DNA of 49,649 nt from Anaerolineae bacterium (GTDB lineage Bacteria; Chloroflexota; Anaerolineae; B4-G1). Each line of letters opens with the position of its first letter. The first letter of the stretch is position 1. This document shows positions 6,921 to 49,649 of the stretch, in pieces. The stretch is from NCBI GenBank assembly GCA_016931785.1, contig JAFGED010000202.1, positions 1 to 49,649 of the forward strand, in the 5' to 3' direction. The position numbers were made by a program, and so were the translations under genes. The notes beneath the pieces were generated by a model that was given only the letters and a program-made list of their open reading frames with translations, did not search any database and was not told the origin of the DNA.

Positions 6921-7016
6921 TGAATCCCCCGCTTGGCGACAATCCCTTGGATCGCGCCTCACCCCCGCCGCAATTGCCAACCGCTTCGCGTTTGGACGCT
7001 CTCCGGCTTTTCCCCA
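6921..7016 (-). repeat. Composite palindromic element (family 1), partial intergenic copy
   Basis: Minus strand begins ATGGGGAAAAGCCGGAGAGCGTCCAAACGCGAAGCGGTTGGCAAT..., matching one half of the copy at 26702-26931. Confidence 0.7.
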
Positions 7017-9424: not shown

Positions 9425-9552
9425 GTGAAGATCCCCGGCGCTTTGCGCCGGGGATCTTCCTAAGGGAAAAGCCCTTGGGGACCGCCGCCCCAAAATCCCC
9501 CGCTTTGCCATTCACCCCCACCACAAGCAGTGGGGTTTCTAGCTTTTCCCCA
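9425..9552 (-). repeat. Composite palindromic element (family 1), intergenic copy directly after the DUF2079 stop codon
   Basis: Minus strand ATGGGGAAAAGCTAGAAACCCC...GGGGTGAATGGCAAAGCGGGGGATTTTGGGGCGGCGGTCCCC...TTCCCTTAGGAAGATCCCCGGCGCAAAGCGCCGGGGATCTTCAC. Confidence 0.85.
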
Positions 9553-11232
9553 TCAAGGCCAACAAGGCCGATCTTGCTCGACTAGATCAGCCACGTAGGC
9601 CAACACGGCCTCTGTTTCTCCCTCAGCAGGTTCTCCCCGCTCAAGCAGTAGAATGCGCCCAGCCCAGTACCGCACACGAAAGTCGCCAGTGCCCATAATC
9701 TGTGTAACGATCTCCCCGTAGCTTGCGCGCGGGTCTGGAGCCGGGACGACCCTGCAATCCACCAAGTCAAATAACACATAGTCCACCATCTCCAGGTGAT
9801 CCAGCCGAAGCGGGGCAGGATACTCCAAAGCCACCAACACGCGGCGGTCAGCGAGTTGCGGCCCCAAGCGATTGACCGTGGCGACACCTGCATCGGGAGG
9901 AATCTGCGCCAGCGCCTCCGCAATCTGATCGTGGTGGGGTTCAGGCTGGAACATCCCCTCTCGAGCGTAGAGACAGATCGGGTTGAGGGCAATGTTGATA
10001 CCCAGCGTACCAAACACCATAAACGCAAGCCCCAAACGGTAGAGGCGGAGTCTGCCAGGGCGATGCAGTCGCCGCAAACCCTCAGACACCGCCAAGAAAA
10101 ACCAGGGGATCAGCACCGCAGGGTACTGGTAACCGACAGAGTGGAACGCCGGGCGCTCCCCCAGCAAGAGATAGGCCAGTGAAGGCAACGCCACTAGAAA
10201 GGAAGTGAAGCTCCCCGGCGCTTTGCGCCGGGACTTCCTAAGGGAAAAGCCCTCGGGGGCTGCCGCCCCCAAATCTCTCGCCTTGCCATTCACCCCCACC
10301 TCTTGCGGTGGGGTTCTCTGGCTTTTCCCCGTAGACCCCAGAAAAGGAAGAAATCCCAAGGGTAGAAACAGGTGAATCAAGTAGAGGGCAATCGTCTCAA
10401 AAGACGCGCTTCCTATGGGCTGCGCGGTTCCTCCTTGATCAGAGCTTACTCCTCCCAACAGCTTGATCCATAGCTGCCAGAAGCGATACGGCTGCCCCTC
10501 GTTGAAGGTGGGGATAATCAAGCCAAAACACAAAATCGCCCAGACTCCAGCCAGGATCACGAGCCCCAGTCCAACCCGCCGTCTCTTTCCCCACAAAAGA
10601 TTGACCACTCCCCACACTGCTATGGGGATCACCAACTCCTCCTTGACAGACAGGGCCAGCAACACGGCAACCCAGAAAAGGGCCGTTCGCTCTTCATGCA
10701 AAGCCCAATAAGCCAAAAGTATCAGAGGGACGGAAAAAGCGACAGGATGAAAATCCACCAGGTTGAGAAAGCCCAACGCAGGATAGGCCAGATAGCAACA
10801 AGAGACGATGAACGCCGCCCACGCATCCCCCGTCTGCTTGTGGACGACACAATAGAGCGGGAAAGCCGCCAGACCGAGAGCCACGCTCTGCAGGATGAGC
10901 AGCAAACGCGGATCCGGCCACACCCGATAGAGGGGCGCCAAGAAAAGCAGGATCGGGCGAACGTGGTTGCCCAAATAGCTGCCGATGAGCCCTGCGTTTG
11001 TCGCCCGATCTATGGAGGTCTCGAACCAGCGCCCGTGGGCCGTGTTCCAGGTCACCTGGGCCATGATGCCCAGGTCGAAAGTTGAGGAATAGAAATTGTT
11101 GTGCCTGACGACAGACAGCGCGCTGAAAGCAACCACATAAACCAGAATCAGCGGCAAAAGCAAGAGCCAAACTCGAGCTTTATGGCGAAACACAGCACCC
11201 CTTTGCGATGAATCTACTAACCACAAAACCAT
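9553..11232 (-). CDS. DUF2079 family membrane protein carrying an in-frame repeat insertion
   Basis: Paralog of 32941-34473 ('ALSVVRHNNFYSSTFDLGIMAQVTWNTAHGRWFETS', 'GYQYPAVLIPWFF', C-terminal 'RPCWP'); extra segment TGKSQRTPPQEVGVNGKARDLGAAAPEGFSLRKSRRKAPGSFT. Confidence 0.88.
   Translation of the reverse strand: MVLWLVDSSQRGAVFRHKARVWLLLLPLILVYVVAFSALSVVRHNNFYSSTFDLGIMAQVTWNTAHGRWFETSIDRATNAGLIGSYLGNHVRPILLFLAPLYRVWPDPRLLLILQSVALGLAAFPLYCVVHKQTGDAWAAFIVSCCYLAYPALGFLNLVDFHPVAFSVPLILLAYWALHEERTALFWVAVLLALSVKEELVIPIAVWGVVNLLWGKRRRVGLGLVILAGVWAILCFGLIIPTFNEGQPYRFWQLWIKLLGGVSSDQGGTAQPIGSASFETIALYLIHLFLPLGFLPFLGSTGKSQRTPPQEVGVNGKARDLGAAAPEGFSLRKSRRKAPGSFTSFLVALPSLAYLLLGERPAFHSVGYQYPAVLIPWFFLAVSEGLRRLHRPGRLRLYRLGLAFMVFGTLGINIALNPICLYAREGMFQPEPHHDQIAEALAQIPPDAGVATVNRLGPQLADRRVLVALEYPAPLRLDHLEMVDYVLFDLVDCRVVPAPDPRASYGEIVTQIMGTGDFRVRYWAGRILLLERGEPAEGETEAVLAYVADLVEQDRPCWP
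10205..10332 (-). repeat. Composite palindromic element (family 1), 128 bp, in frame inside the DUF2079 CDS
   Basis: Minus strand ACGGGGAAAAGCCAGA...GATTTGGGGGCGGCAGCCCCC...TTCCCTTAGGAAG...GGCGCAAAGCGCCGGGGAGCTTCAC; absent from the paralog. Confidence 0.88.
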
Positions 11233-25008: not shown

Positions 25009-26958
25009 TCAAGGCTCCCTCGGCACGTAATCGGCGATCACCAAGGGCGGTATGGTAGGCACCCTGGATACCGTCCCGGCTTCCACCTGCCAACCTGCAG
25101 AGATGCTTCTCACCAGCGGCGTCTCCTGATCGGCCAGCCGGGCCACTCGCACGCGCCCCACACCCTGCGCGGCCAGCCGCTCGTCCAACGCGCTCCATTC
25201 GTCCGGCGTGCGCACGACGAGGAACGGCACCTCGCCGTACACCTCCGGCGCGATCTGCGGCACGAACCAGAGATCGGTGACGACGACGGTCCTATCAGGC
25301 GCGCGAAGCAGCGTGCGCGCGAGCACGTCGTTCCCGGCACGGACGTGCCACAGCTTCATCACGCCCACCGCCTGTACCGCCGCTCCGGCCAGCAACAGCG
25401 TCACTAACGCCCCGCGCACCGCGTACCGCTCCATCGAGGAACGCGCGCCCCGTTCCAGACGATCCCAGCGCTCGACGGCCAACAGCACGAGCGGCCCCAG
25501 TAGCGGCGTCAAATAGCGCGGTCCCCACTGCCACCCGCCGGACTGGCGGCCCAGCACGACCGATAATACCACGACCCACACACACCAAACTGCCAGCTGC
25601 CGCCGCCAACGGCCCCGGGTCGCTACGCTCTCGGCTCGCTCTCCGAATCTCAAAAACGCCAGGCAGGCCACCGGCGCTCCGAACAACAGGTCAATCGGGT
25701 GGTAGCCGCGCGACACCAACACCACCGCGCCCACAGCCACCAGCACGAGGCCGAGACATTCGACCGTCGAACCCAATCGCCCGGCCAGGGCCGGACGCAG
25801 CCTGCGATAGGCATACGCCATCCCGAAAACCGCCAGCCCGCCGGCCAGGATCACCAGCACGCCCAGCTGCCGGCTCTCCACGACCATCTGGCTCATCTCG
25901 AACAAACGCCTGAACGACCACACGCGGGTCTCAAAAGCCGATGGGGCAAAGTTCATCGCGGCCTGGCCGCCGATCGCTTGGCCCACGACGGCGGCCTGAT
26001 ACGCCCAGCCTACCAGGCCTGCCAGGCCCAGTCCGGCCGTCACCCAACCCAGCGCCGGCCACATCGAACGCCGCACGACCAGCACGGCCAGCAAGGCCAA
26101 CACAGAAGTACCCGCCTCCGGACGGGTCGCCACCGCCGCTCCCAGGCACAACCCCGCCGCGATCCCCGACAGGACCCGCGACTGGCGCATGTCTGGAATC
26201 ACCAGCGTCAACGCCCCCCAGATCAGCACGCTGGCGAGCGTGTGCCCCCAAAACGTCACACTGTAAAACAGCCACGACGAGGCCAGTCCCAGCGCCAGCA
26301 CGACGAAAAAGGCGACCCGTCCAGAAAACCGGCGGCCCACCCAAGCCGCCAGGGCCAGCCCCCCCACCCCCGCGATCAGCGGCGGGGCGTAGAGCGCTGG
26401 CAGTCCCCCAGCCGACAGCAACAGGCTGGACAGAAATATGTAGGGCAGCGTATAGATCGTGAGAACGCGATCTCCCTCCCACACGGCAAAGGGCGCGCCC
26501 AGCGGGGCCAGAGCGTGATCCGGATCGAGGACGGCATTGGCCCCGGCGTAGGAAGCCCAGGGCGTGCGCCAGCCGTTGGCGATCCAGGCCTCCATCTGCC
26601 ACAGCTTGACGCCGGCATCTCCGCTCCAAAAGCCGCGACAGGGCGACAGCGCCAGCACGATCCCCACGTACAGCGCGCCAACGATCACGACCAGCACCCA
26701 CGTGAAGCTCCCCGGCGCAAAGCGCCGGGGCTTCCGGGAAGACTCCCCTTCGGGGAGCTTCCTAAGGGAAGAAGCCTGTGCGAGCTTCGCTCGCGCGGGG
26801 GCGGCCGCCCCCAAATCCCCCGCTTTACGGCAATCCTGCGGATTACGGCAATCCAAGGGATTGCACCTCATCCCCACCGCAATGCGATTGCCAACCGCAA
26901 AGCGGTTGGACGCTTTCTGGCTTTTCCCCGTCAAGCGCAGGAGATTTTCACGGTTCAT
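25009..26958 (-). CDS. Multi-TM GT39-like protein with an in-frame repeat element right after the first nine residues
   Basis: ATG at 26958 (ATGA overlap with the upstream gene); MNRENLLRL followed by the 230-bp element, then 'WVLVVIVGALYVGIVLALSPCRGFWSGDAGVKLWQMEAWIANGW'. Confidence 0.8.
   Translation of the reverse strand: MNRENLLRLTGKSQKASNRFAVGNRIAVGMRCNPLDCRNPQDCRKAGDLGAAAPARAKLAQASSLRKLPEGESSRKPRRFAPGSFTWVLVVIVGALYVGIVLALSPCRGFWSGDAGVKLWQMEAWIANGWRTPWASYAGANAVLDPDHALAPLGAPFAVWEGDRVLTIYTLPYIFLSSLLLSAGGLPALYAPPLIAGVGGLALAAWVGRRFSGRVAFFVVLALGLASSWLFYSVTFWGHTLASVLIWGALTLVIPDMRQSRVLSGIAAGLCLGAAVATRPEAGTSVLALLAVLVVRRSMWPALGWVTAGLGLAGLVGWAYQAAVVGQAIGGQAAMNFAPSAFETRVWSFRRLFEMSQMVVESRQLGVLVILAGGLAVFGMAYAYRRLRPALAGRLGSTVECLGLVLVAVGAVVLVSRGYHPIDLLFGAPVACLAFLRFGERAESVATRGRWRRQLAVWCVWVVVLSVVLGRQSGGWQWGPRYLTPLLGPLVLLAVERWDRLERGARSSMERYAVRGALVTLLLAGAAVQAVGVMKLWHVRAGNDVLARTLLRAPDRTVVVTDLWFVPQIAPEVYGEVPFLVVRTPDEWSALDERLAAQGVGRVRVARLADQETPLVRSISAGWQVEAGTVSRVPTIPPLVIADYVPREP
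26702..26931 (-). repeat. Composite palindromic element (family 1), long 230-bp copy, in frame inside CDS
   Basis: Minus strand ACGGGGAAAAGCCAGA...GATTTGGGGGCGGCCGCCCCC...TTCCCTTAGGAAG...CGGCGCTTTGCGCCGGGGAGCTTCAC; peptide TGKSQKASNRFAVGN...AGDLGAAAP...SSLRK...APGSFT. Confidence 0.88.
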
Positions 26959-31439: not shown

Positions 31440-32953
31440 TCGCCGTCTACCTCCCGTAAGTCACACAGCAAGAGACTCACACCATACCACACTCTCGCAT
31501 CCTCGCAGTCGTAGCTCCTCGCGGCCCGTTCCACGATCCCGCGATGGCGCTCGGCAAGCTCCTGCGACATCTGCACGTCGGCGGTGACGAGCCACAACCG
31601 CTCCCGCCCGGCGATGGCCTCGTCGAGTGACTGGATCCGCTGCCCGGCCCAATCCCACGTATAGGGTGGCAGCCAGATTTCTGGGTCATTGTTCAGCAAA
31701 TAGCTCTCCGCCCCCGGCGCATAGTAGCGCAGCGGCAAGTAGGTGCTATCGTGCAGATGAAAGAGAACGTCCCCCTCCCGCCAGCCCTCCCGCACCCCCC
31801 CGCCAACCTCGCGAAACGGCGGCTTGGCCGGGTCGGGGTTGAGATAATAGTTCCCAAGCGAGATCGCTATCAAGACCGCCAGAACCCCGTAAAGAACCCG
31901 CACCGGAGAGCCCTTGGGCGGATGCGCCAATCCCCATCCCAGCAGCAGCACGTAAGCCGGCGCGACCAGGCTGAAGGAACGGTCCAGGTAAACGGGCTTG
32001 GCCAGCCAGGAGATCACCAGAGCGATCAAGTTTGGAGCCAGCACCAACGCCAGCAGCAAAAGCGCCCGCTGGCGCGCCTCGCCACGGGCGCGGACGCCAG
32101 CCCAAGCCACGAGTGTGATGATGGACAAAGCCATGAAAAGCGCCACCGGATTCAGGAACACGGGCGTCGTATGGCTAAAGAGCAGATAAACCAGCGTCTT
32201 GACGAGTTCCAGCGGGGAGGGCGTGGAGAGCCAAAAGCCGGTCGCCACCTGCTGAGTTTGCGCCAGCGCCGATGGCGCGTGCGGCCCCCACAACACCAGG
32301 GCCACCCCATCGGCCAGGAGCAGGCCCCACCAATAACGCCGGTCTTGCGGCCATTTCAGCAAAACAAAGGCGTGGAGCACCAGCAGCGTGAACGCGGTAA
32401 AATAGTGCGCGCAAAGATTCAGGGCGAACAGAAAACCCAGCACGACCCAGCGCCACCCACTCGCCTTCTCGCAAGCGCGGGCGAACCCCCACAGCAGCAA
32501 CGCCGATAGCAAGATGACGAGCGCGTACAATCGGGTCTCCTGGGCAAAGTAAACCTGGAAGGGCAGCACGGCCGTCAGCAGCGCGGCAGCCAGCCCGGTG
32601 GCGGGGGTAAACAGCTCGCGGCCGAGCGCGTATATCACAGGAACGGTCAGCAGCCCACACAGCGCCGAAAAGCCGCGCAGCACCGTTTCACTCTCGCCCA
32701 ACCGAATCCAGAAATGAAGCAGAAAGTGATAAAGCGGGGGTAGAATTGGCTCCAGCCGCTGGGCGAGAATAGCCCAGGCCGGTTGCCGCGCCACCAGCCA
32801 ACTGAATGCCTCGTCGGCCCACAGGCTGCTGGCGCCGATGTGAAGCAGGCGCAGGACGCAAGCCAACACCAGAACCGCCAGCAGCCAGACCGGGCTTTCC
32901 ACACGCGGGAGACGGCCCAGAAGAGAACGCAGACGAGAGCTTACGGCCAGCAC
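31436..32953 (-). CDS. GT39-like membrane glycosyltransferase ('YFAQETRLYAL' subgroup)
   Basis: 'GASSLWADEAFSWLVARQPAW...FQVYFAQETRLYALV'; clear paralog of 17704-19158 and 23480-24988. Confidence 0.85.
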   Translation of the reverse strand: MLAVSSRLRSLLGRLPRVESPVWLLAVLVLACVLRLLHIGASSLWADEAFSWLVARQPAWAILAQRLEPILPPLYHFLLHFWIRLGESETVLRGFSALCGLLTVPVIYALGRELFTPATGLAAALLTAVLPFQVYFAQETRLYALVILLSALLLWGFARACEKASGWRWVVLGFLFALNLCAHYFTAFTLLVLHAFVLLKWPQDRRYWWGLLLADGVALVLWGPHAPSALAQTQQVATGFWLSTPSPLELVKTLVYLLFSHTTPVFLNPVALFMALSIITLVAWAGVRARGEARQRALLLLALVLAPNLIALVISWLAKPVYLDRSFSLVAPAYVLLLGWGLAHPPKGSPVRVLYGVLAVLIAISLGNYYLNPDPAKPPFREVGGGVREGWREGDVLFHLHDSTYLPLRYYAPGAESYLLNNDPEIWLPPYTWDWAGQRIQSLDEAIAGRERLWLVTADVQMSQELAERHRGIVERAARSYDCEDARVWYGVSLLLCDLREVDGE

Positions 32954-34473
32954 GGTCGCCCTTCCTCCACCAGGTCGTCCACATAGGCCCGCACCTCGTC
33001 CACCTCTTCCCCTGGCGGAAGGCCGCGTTCCAAAAGAAGGATGCGATCAGACCAATAGCGCACGCCAAAATCCCGCGTGTCGAGAATCTCGTATGTCATT
33101 CGCCCATAGTCGCCTCTCGGGTCCTGCGTGTGAAACAGGCGACAATCCACCAGGTCCAACAAGACATAGTCCACTTCGGCCATGTGGTCCATATTCAAGC
33201 CGGTCGTGTATTTTTCAAGGCCAATCAAGCAGCGCCGATTGGCCAGGTGAGGTCCAAAAGGATTGACGGTGGCGACACCGGCCCGGGGAGGGATCAGCGC
33301 CATCGCCGCTTCGATCTGCTCGTGCTGAGGCATGTGCATAAAGTAACCGCTCAGCCAACTGGTTCGGACCGGGTTAAAGGGCAAGTTTGCGCCCAATGTC
33401 CCTATCAACAGCAAACTTACAGGCAGCCACTTTTTCAAATCGTGCCGCAGCCGCAAGCGTCTTTCCAGCCTGGACAATCCCTGGATGGTGGCTAGGAACA
33501 GCCAGGGAATCAACACGGCAGGATATTGAAAACCGACTTGGTGCAAAGCAGCTCGGTCGCTCAAAAGCAAATATGCAAACGAAGGCCAAGACACGGCGAA
33601 TAATTCGGGCCCGAACAGAGGCAAAAACCCCAAGGGTATTAAGAGATGGGCAACAAAGTAGGCCGAGTCAACGGAAAACAAAGCCCCTCCAGAGCCCCCA
33701 CCACTACTCCCCAATTCTCCCAAAAACGGCAACCGAGACCATAGATCAAAGAAACGATAGGCGCGTCCTTCGTTGGCAGCGGGGATGATCACGATGAAAC
33801 AAAGAAACGCCCAGGCGATGGCCGTTCCCAGCAACCACACCCCTCTCCTGCGCCACGCTGAAAAGAACAGACAATAAACACCAAAGGCTGCTACAGGAAC
33901 GACCAACTCCTCCTTGGTCGATAGGGTAAGCAAGATCATCGCCCAGAAGAGAATCTTACGCTCTTCCAACAAAGCCCAATAGGCAAAAAGCAATGCAGGG
34001 ACACAAAAAGCCACGGGGTGAAAATCAAACAGGTTGATAAAGCCCAAGGCCGGATACAACAAATACACAATAACCAGGACGTAATGCAAAATAGGGCGCT
34101 TTAAATTTCGCCGTGCAATCCAGTACAACGGTACAGCCCCCACTGCCAGCACAATCGATTGCATGCTCAACAACACGCGAGGGTCGGGCCACAGCCGGTA
34201 CAGCGGCGCCAGAAAGAGCAGCAGGGGCCGCACGTGATTGCCCATATAGCTGCCGATCAGTTCTGTATCCATCGCTCGATCCAGCGACGTCTCAAACAGC
34301 CGCCCATGTGCCGTATTCCAGGTGACCTGGGTCATGATGCCCAGATCGAGCGTAAAAGAATGAAAGTTGTCATGCTTGACTATCGACAAAGTCGCATATG
34401 TCGCCACGTAAACCAACATCAGCACACAGAGCCATATCGGCACAGCCTTACTCAGCTTCGGAACGAACGTCAT
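32941..34473 (-). CDS. DUF2079 family membrane protein (without insertion)
   Basis: Paralog of 9553-11232; 'LSIVKHDNFHSFTLDLGIMTQVTWNTAHGRLFETSLDRAMDTELIGSYMGNHVRPLLL'. Confidence 0.88.
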   Translation of the reverse strand: MTFVPKLSKAVPIWLCVLMLVYVATYATLSIVKHDNFHSFTLDLGIMTQVTWNTAHGRLFETSLDRAMDTELIGSYMGNHVRPLLLFLAPLYRLWPDPRVLLSMQSIVLAVGAVPLYWIARRNLKRPILHYVLVIVYLLYPALGFINLFDFHPVAFCVPALLFAYWALLEERKILFWAMILLTLSTKEELVVPVAAFGVYCLFFSAWRRRGVWLLGTAIAWAFLCFIVIIPAANEGRAYRFFDLWSRLPFLGELGSSGGGSGGALFSVDSAYFVAHLLIPLGFLPLFGPELFAVSWPSFAYLLLSDRAALHQVGFQYPAVLIPWLFLATIQGLSRLERRLRLRHDLKKWLPVSLLLIGTLGANLPFNPVRTSWLSGYFMHMPQHEQIEAAMALIPPRAGVATVNPFGPHLANRRCLIGLEKYTTGLNMDHMAEVDYVLLDLVDCRLFHTQDPRGDYGRMTYEILDTRDFGVRYWSDRILLLERGLPPGEEVDEVRAYVDDLVEEGRPCWP

Positions 34474-49548: not shown

Positions 49549-49562
49549 TGAGTTCCTCAAAC

Positions 49563-49649
49563 GTAACTACTCAGGCTATTCGCCTGAGCAGTCTCCCTCG
49601 CTCGAAAAGGGGAGAGATGGGGGGTTTGGAGAGCGGCTTCGCCGCTCTC
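49563..49649. mobile_element. Second copy of the GTAACTACTCAG MITE-like element (truncated by window end)
   Basis: GTAACTACTCAGGCTATTCGCCTGAGCAGTCTCCCTCGCTCGAAAAGGGGAG... matches 2120-2165 at ~43/46 positions, then enters a hairpin 'gagagcggcttcgccgctctc'. Confidence 0.8.

Follow-up and report, generated by a model that had tools for sequence, protein, structure and literature searches.

A short palindromic element in genes and at stop codons of an Anaerolineae bacterium: a probable miniature IS200/IS605-type element filtered by selection

The element and its copies in the window

The window analyzed here is a stretch of 49,649 nucleotides from an Anaerolineae bacterium (contig JAFGED010000202.1). 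On its minus strand, positions 25009-26958 encode a GT-like, multi-spanning membrane protein with no Pfam hit. Inspection of the reading frame from ATG 26958 reveals a repeat element in frame at the N-terminus, where MNRENLLRL is followed by TGKSQKASNRF...APGSFT and then by the first hydrophobic helix, as a preliminary description of this DNA had claimed. The element spans 26702-26929 on the minus strand (GGGGAAAAGCC...GGGGAGCTTCAC) and, read 5' to 3' on that strand from 26929 down to 26702, runs GGGGAAAAGCCAG...GGGGAGCTTCAC. Its ends were set from 32 full copies and its stops were scored by frame, with sense phase 2 stop-free across 76 codons. The preliminary description had assigned it 230 bp; the element is real, but its left boundary falls at 26929 rather than 26931, for a true length of 228 bp. 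The letters AC formerly counted as element are the end of the target motif, which is TTGAC at this copy (26930-26934, minus strand, from flank alignment, with no duplication on the right side) and GTCTAC at the sister copy discussed below. The reported length difference between these two copies, 102 bp and a multiple of 3, is right, the true lengths being 228 and 126 bp, both multiples of 3.

Folding of the 228-mer and the 126-mer as single strands yields a long left stem (GGGGAAAAGCC with GGCTTTTCCC) that encloses nested hairpins, followed by a separate terminal hairpin. This right-end hairpin occupies 26702-26735 on the minus strand (GGAAGCCCCGGCGC/TTT/GCGCCGGGGAGCTTC, then AC) and is conserved in all full copies. 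Folding z-scores are -6.65 for the 228-mer and -4.85 for the 126-mer, and full-length BLAST matches elsewhere in the genome reach E values of 4e-90 and 6e-67, which together place the element match far above chance.

The sister copy, 126 bp at 10205-10330 on the minus strand, is located inside a DUF2079 (PF09852) membrane protein gene (9553-11232, minus strand). Relative to a paralogue without the insertion (32941-34473, minus strand), which provides the empty-site protein, it is a clean insertion of 42 residues. The sequence blocks common to the 26702 copy and the one described earlier at 10205-10332 do have the same orientation and phase. A 127-bp copy (9425-9551, minus strand) follows the stop codon of this gene at a distance of 1 bp, and its target, CTTGAT, includes the TGA stop of that gene. 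A left-end remnant of a further copy, with target TTTAT, is found at 6937-7015 on the minus strand. Another repeat family in the window, unrelated to the element, has a long hairpin (CGTAACTACTCAGGCTA...GAGAGCGGC) and lies at 2119-2229 and 49562-49649; at 2119-2229, its 32-nt arms are perfect (2163-2194/2198-2229). Similar long hairpins occur near several element copies elsewhere (L003, L006, L010).

Homologues of the gene hosting the 26702 copy have only a few residues ahead of the first helix, so the element has been added between this helix and the start codon. The same observation bears on where translation begins. The preliminary description had itself named an internal GTG start, with the element untranslated, as a reading that would tell against it, and for this gene such a start is possible on sequence grounds, though we do not favor it. 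The element would then be a leader, with the gene starting at the in-frame GTG directly downstream (26695-26697, minus strand) or at a second in-frame GTG at 26688, using GGGGAG from the right end of the element. This GGGGAG precedes both GTGs and places a GGAG-like sequence 10 nt upstream, while no Shine-Dalgarno sequence precedes ATG 26958. On the other hand, the overlap of this ATG with the upstream TGA at 26957 (ATGA) is the usual arrangement of a coupled start, and no stop interrupts the 76 codons in between, which is expected in only about one-third of sense phases. This ambiguity does not affect the internal 10205 copy.

Ends, target motif and class of the family

We searched the whole genome (4.81 Mb in 481 contigs) with the 228-bp query and obtained 60 matching pieces. 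End-motif searches and inspection of loci resolved 32 full copies of 91-228 bp, together with some fifteen half copies located where contigs end. Numerous contigs stop within 126-bp copies that are nearly identical (L061, L062, L056, L069, L081, L071 and L090; L024, L028, L030, L043, L045 and L046), so the assembly undercounts this young 126-bp subfamily. All full copies begin with GGGGAAAAGCC or a close variant and finish with the right-end hairpin and then TTCAC or a variant of it. Left flanks usually carry TTTAT, TCTAT, TTTAC or TTCAC (consensus YYAY), with A at -2 in 41 of 42 flanks and a pyrimidine at -1 in all 42; on the right, no base is strongly conserved. The target is not duplicated, since joining the flanks restores the reading frames of the DUF2079, endonuclease-like and PMT_2 genes exactly. 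Hairpins are subterminal at both ends, and terminal inverted repeats are absent.

The left-stem pattern was absent from 395 other genomes of the class, the right-end hairpin pattern had no match among 85,000 named genomes, and the element matched nothing in plasmid and phage collections. Some relatives in the class have the core sequence in common with different ends. At five such loci (L110, L111, L116, L117 and L119, in genomes G181 and G119) the core GGCGAGCGGGGGCTTGGGGGCGGCAGCCCCC is shared, with the ends being TCAT|GAAAAACC ... GCGGGGTGGTTAAC|; comparison of these sequences suggests that cores and ends are exchanged between element families.

The ends, target motif and hairpins most probably identify a non-autonomous miniature element of IS200/IS605 type, similar to the palindrome-associated transposable elements (PATEs) of Haloquadratum walsbyi, which derive from IS605-type transposons (PMC3119063); its in-gene survivors would be filtered by selection, and its insertions at stop codons would be harmless. 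Like the element described here, PATEs are short, lack transposase coding capacity and terminal inverted repeats, have near-terminal palindromes, produce no target duplication and occur as heterogeneous lengths and decayed copies (PMC3119063). In contrast to PATEs, the present element offers open frames and occurs in frame within genes, and no parent with the same ends was recovered; it also undergoes the stop-codon swaps described below, for which we found no report for PATEs. IS200/IS605 insertion sequences likewise insert 3' of a short specific motif without duplication and carry subterminal hairpins at both ends (PMC7290912). The element differs from them in being non-autonomous, in its relaxed 4-base motif YYAY and in its very long left stem with nested hairpins. 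The hairpins of IS608 are short. By comparison, the present element has a right-end hairpin of extreme stability and a long left stem with multiple branches, which counts against the reading that we prefer.

Mobilization would presumably proceed as single-stranded DNA through a Y1 (HUH) TnpA acting in trans, with insertion predicted 3' of YYAY and without target duplication. Y1_Tnp genes are present in the same genome, one of them followed by tnpB. Among the recovered contigs, none carries a tnpA with the ends of the element: the two good Y1 loci lack these ends, and the contig with the tnpA-tnpB locus ends before that locus is complete. Given that no Y1 gene with these ends was recovered, we infer the mobilizing enzyme.

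Two other classes of GC-rich or palindromic repeat invite comparison. REP/BIME sequences and their RAYTs also pair GC-rich palindromes with Y1-type transposases and lie mostly outside genes, but a REP consists of one short hairpin with a GTAG-type head, whereas the present element has two stems, defined ends and a target motif (PMC2817692). The Rickettsia palindromic elements, about 100-230 bp in length, are similarly found in frame in unrelated genes and lengthen the proteins (reviewed in PMC10969869). In contrast to these, in-frame genic copies are a minority here, the orientation varies, the encoded peptide shows no conservation, and the ends and target are IS200/IS605-like.

The strong hairpins and the TAM-like left flank could also describe a structured or self-splicing RNA (a HEARO/omega RNA, or a group I or II intron) rather than the remnant of a DNA transposon. 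Omega RNAs overlap the ends of IS200/IS605 elements. The HEARO/omega reading was considered for its flank and dropped. No Rfam covariance model matched: the window contains no Rfam family match at gathering thresholds, and 17 copy loci searched at E values up to 5 returned only sub-threshold chance matches, mostly to microRNA models. We regard a structured RNA as decidedly unlikely.

Genic copies, reading frames and selection

To place copies relative to genes, coding regions were scored by a codon model and not by annotation. The 126-bp consensus is stop-free in three of six frames (sense phase 2, antisense a0 and antisense a2), and the other three contain stops. The element can thus reside inside genes without breaking them. 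Five copies are genic. Apart from those at 10205-10330 (DUF2079 membrane protein) and 26702-26929 (between start codon and helix 1), a third at C58:7008-7133 lies near the C-terminus of a beta-helix protein, where the frame runs on to the native end VYLPIVLRGH. A fourth joins C154 and C389, which both end in the element and together encode a PMT_2 glycosyltransferase; homologues span both halves, and the gene has an extra scar of roughly 30 residues from another repeat at the same place. These four are all in sense phase 2, the phase reported in the preliminary description. The fifth (C206/C72; L043 and L062) is antisense, in frame a0, within an endonuclease-like gene. Copies four and five were each inferred from two contigs broken within the element, and their length of 126 bp was estimated by matching the contig ends to the 126-bp consensus.

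The C206/C72 copy is informative regarding both frame and function. Its host protein weakly resembles a type II restriction endonuclease of known structure (6ekr, E = 1.4e-5), and homologues with 80% identity to it align without a gap across the junction GSVKTTSKDR|IDKVFLDKY. The insert splits the most conserved block of the protein while the frame stays open, and activity of the element-bearing protein is doubtful. The preliminary description had concluded that only one of six frames is tolerated. That conclusion is not supported: this antisense in-frame copy contradicts it, and half of the six frames of the 126-bp form lack stops. By strand and phase, the genic copies split 4:1 in favor of the phase first noticed, which is compatible with chance.

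Two means of keeping a frame open had been proposed, namely selection and a frame-aware insertion process, and the copies argue for the former while leaving the latter unnecessary. Element length is divisible by 3 in 5/5 genic copies versus 10/29 other full copies (Fisher p = 0.011; p = 0.058 with only the three unbroken genic copies), which favors selection. Roughly 70% of target motifs fall in reading frames, yet just 3 of 32 full copies lie inside genes, so genic insertions are strongly depleted. The two old genic 126-mers carry 12 and 14 substitutions relative to the consensus, distributed over codon positions as 4/4/4 and 4/6/4, and have no indels, whereas non-genic copies of similar divergence show 2-5 gap columns. 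This flat spectrum without indels indicates that the frame was kept and the peptide sequence was not. An element or transposase that picks one coding phase and orientation would account for the four genic copies in sense phase 2. Its strict form is already refuted by the antisense copy, and the lengths and positions of non-genic copies bear no relation to frame. Given open frames and per-phase target availability, the occurrence of 4/5 copies in sense phase 2 has p = 0.085 and that of 5/5 in open frames p = 0.10. The phase split is compatible with chance plus selection, with n too small to prove a bias, and we consider frame-aware insertion highly improbable.

A further possibility is that selection acts on the encoded peptide as a functional module in its own right, as in a domesticated coding element resembling those of Rickettsia. 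The element is in frame in several membrane or surface proteins, and sense phase 2 is open in 19/32 copies, intergenic ones included. Antisense a2 is equally open (19/32), however, as GC-rich palindromes predict, and both the flat substitution pattern of the genic copies and the split of the most conserved endonuclease-like block argue against a selected peptide; domestication therefore seems unlikely. Under the preferred reading of a mobile element filtered by selection, most genic insertions would be purged by purifying selection, and survivors would be those with a length divisible by 3 in a stop-free frame (sense phase 2 or a0, with a2 also open). The host protein would gain a basic, Pro/Gly-rich spacer peptide that is not itself conserved. 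The coincidence of phase between copies is then explained without frame sensing, the GC-rich palindromic ends leaving several frames open and selection doing the rest.

Two loci were set aside from the genic class. The copy on C188, with coding sequence on both sides, was rejected because the element sits between two separate tandem genes, and C41 was excluded since the N-terminal half of the abutting gene is missing from the assembly. On C41 (position 4148; L027/L160), the element at the contig end adjoins a second, fragmentary methionyl-tRNA synthetase gene, and an intact metG is located on C148. Beside the element at the end of the C154 coding part (L148), a CCACAGAGACGCAAAGAGCGCAAAG-type repeat remains as a nested insertion that is also in frame.

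Copies at stop codons

Flanking sequence sufficed for scoring at 27 full copies. In nine of them, as judged by coding score, a coding frame 230 codons or longer approaches the right end from the opposite side and ends at the element. Codon inspection identifies eight of these as clean stop swaps, in which R-TAA, R-TAG or R-TGA at the empty site becomes G-TGA with the element. The last codon is unchanged or synonymous in all eight, leaving the protein unchanged. The ninth candidate (C138) has its own TAA just ahead of the junction. Overlap with a stop is expected for 4.9% of all target motifs and for 12.7% of those outside reading frames. The observed 9/27 exceeds both expectations (p = 3e-6 and p = 0.005, respectively), and 8/27 exceeds the latter (p = 0.016).

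Inspection of the right end suggests how these swaps may come about. Its TTCAC is GTGA when read from the complementary strand and so gives a convergent gene a new in-phase TGA; resemblance to the target motif is what allows the right end to replace the stop. YYAY is R-TRR, usually a stop, on the opposite strand, so insertion at the stop of a convergent gene would form a second harmless class in which the right end reinstates what was interrupted. A literature search for stop-codon insertion by IS200/IS605 elements found nothing directly on the subject, which is not proof of novelty. Stop swapping offers a simple, testable reason for the accumulation of such elements exactly at gene ends. More tentatively, a right end that mimics its own target motif, permitting protein-neutral insertion into stops, and palindromes that keep three of six frames open, making genic insertion tolerable, might together offer elements of the IS200/IS605 type a general means of persisting in genomes densely packed with genes.

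Right-end hairpins also occur alone, with no left stem, as sequences of about 36 bp (AGGAAGC...GGGGAGCTTCAC) at C139:13931 (L034), C442:3991 (L097), C207:8276 (L086) and C12:6312 (L095). The hairpin on C442 also ends a convergent gene, and that on C207 is positioned 3' of a tRNA-like stretch and ahead of a terminator-like T-run.
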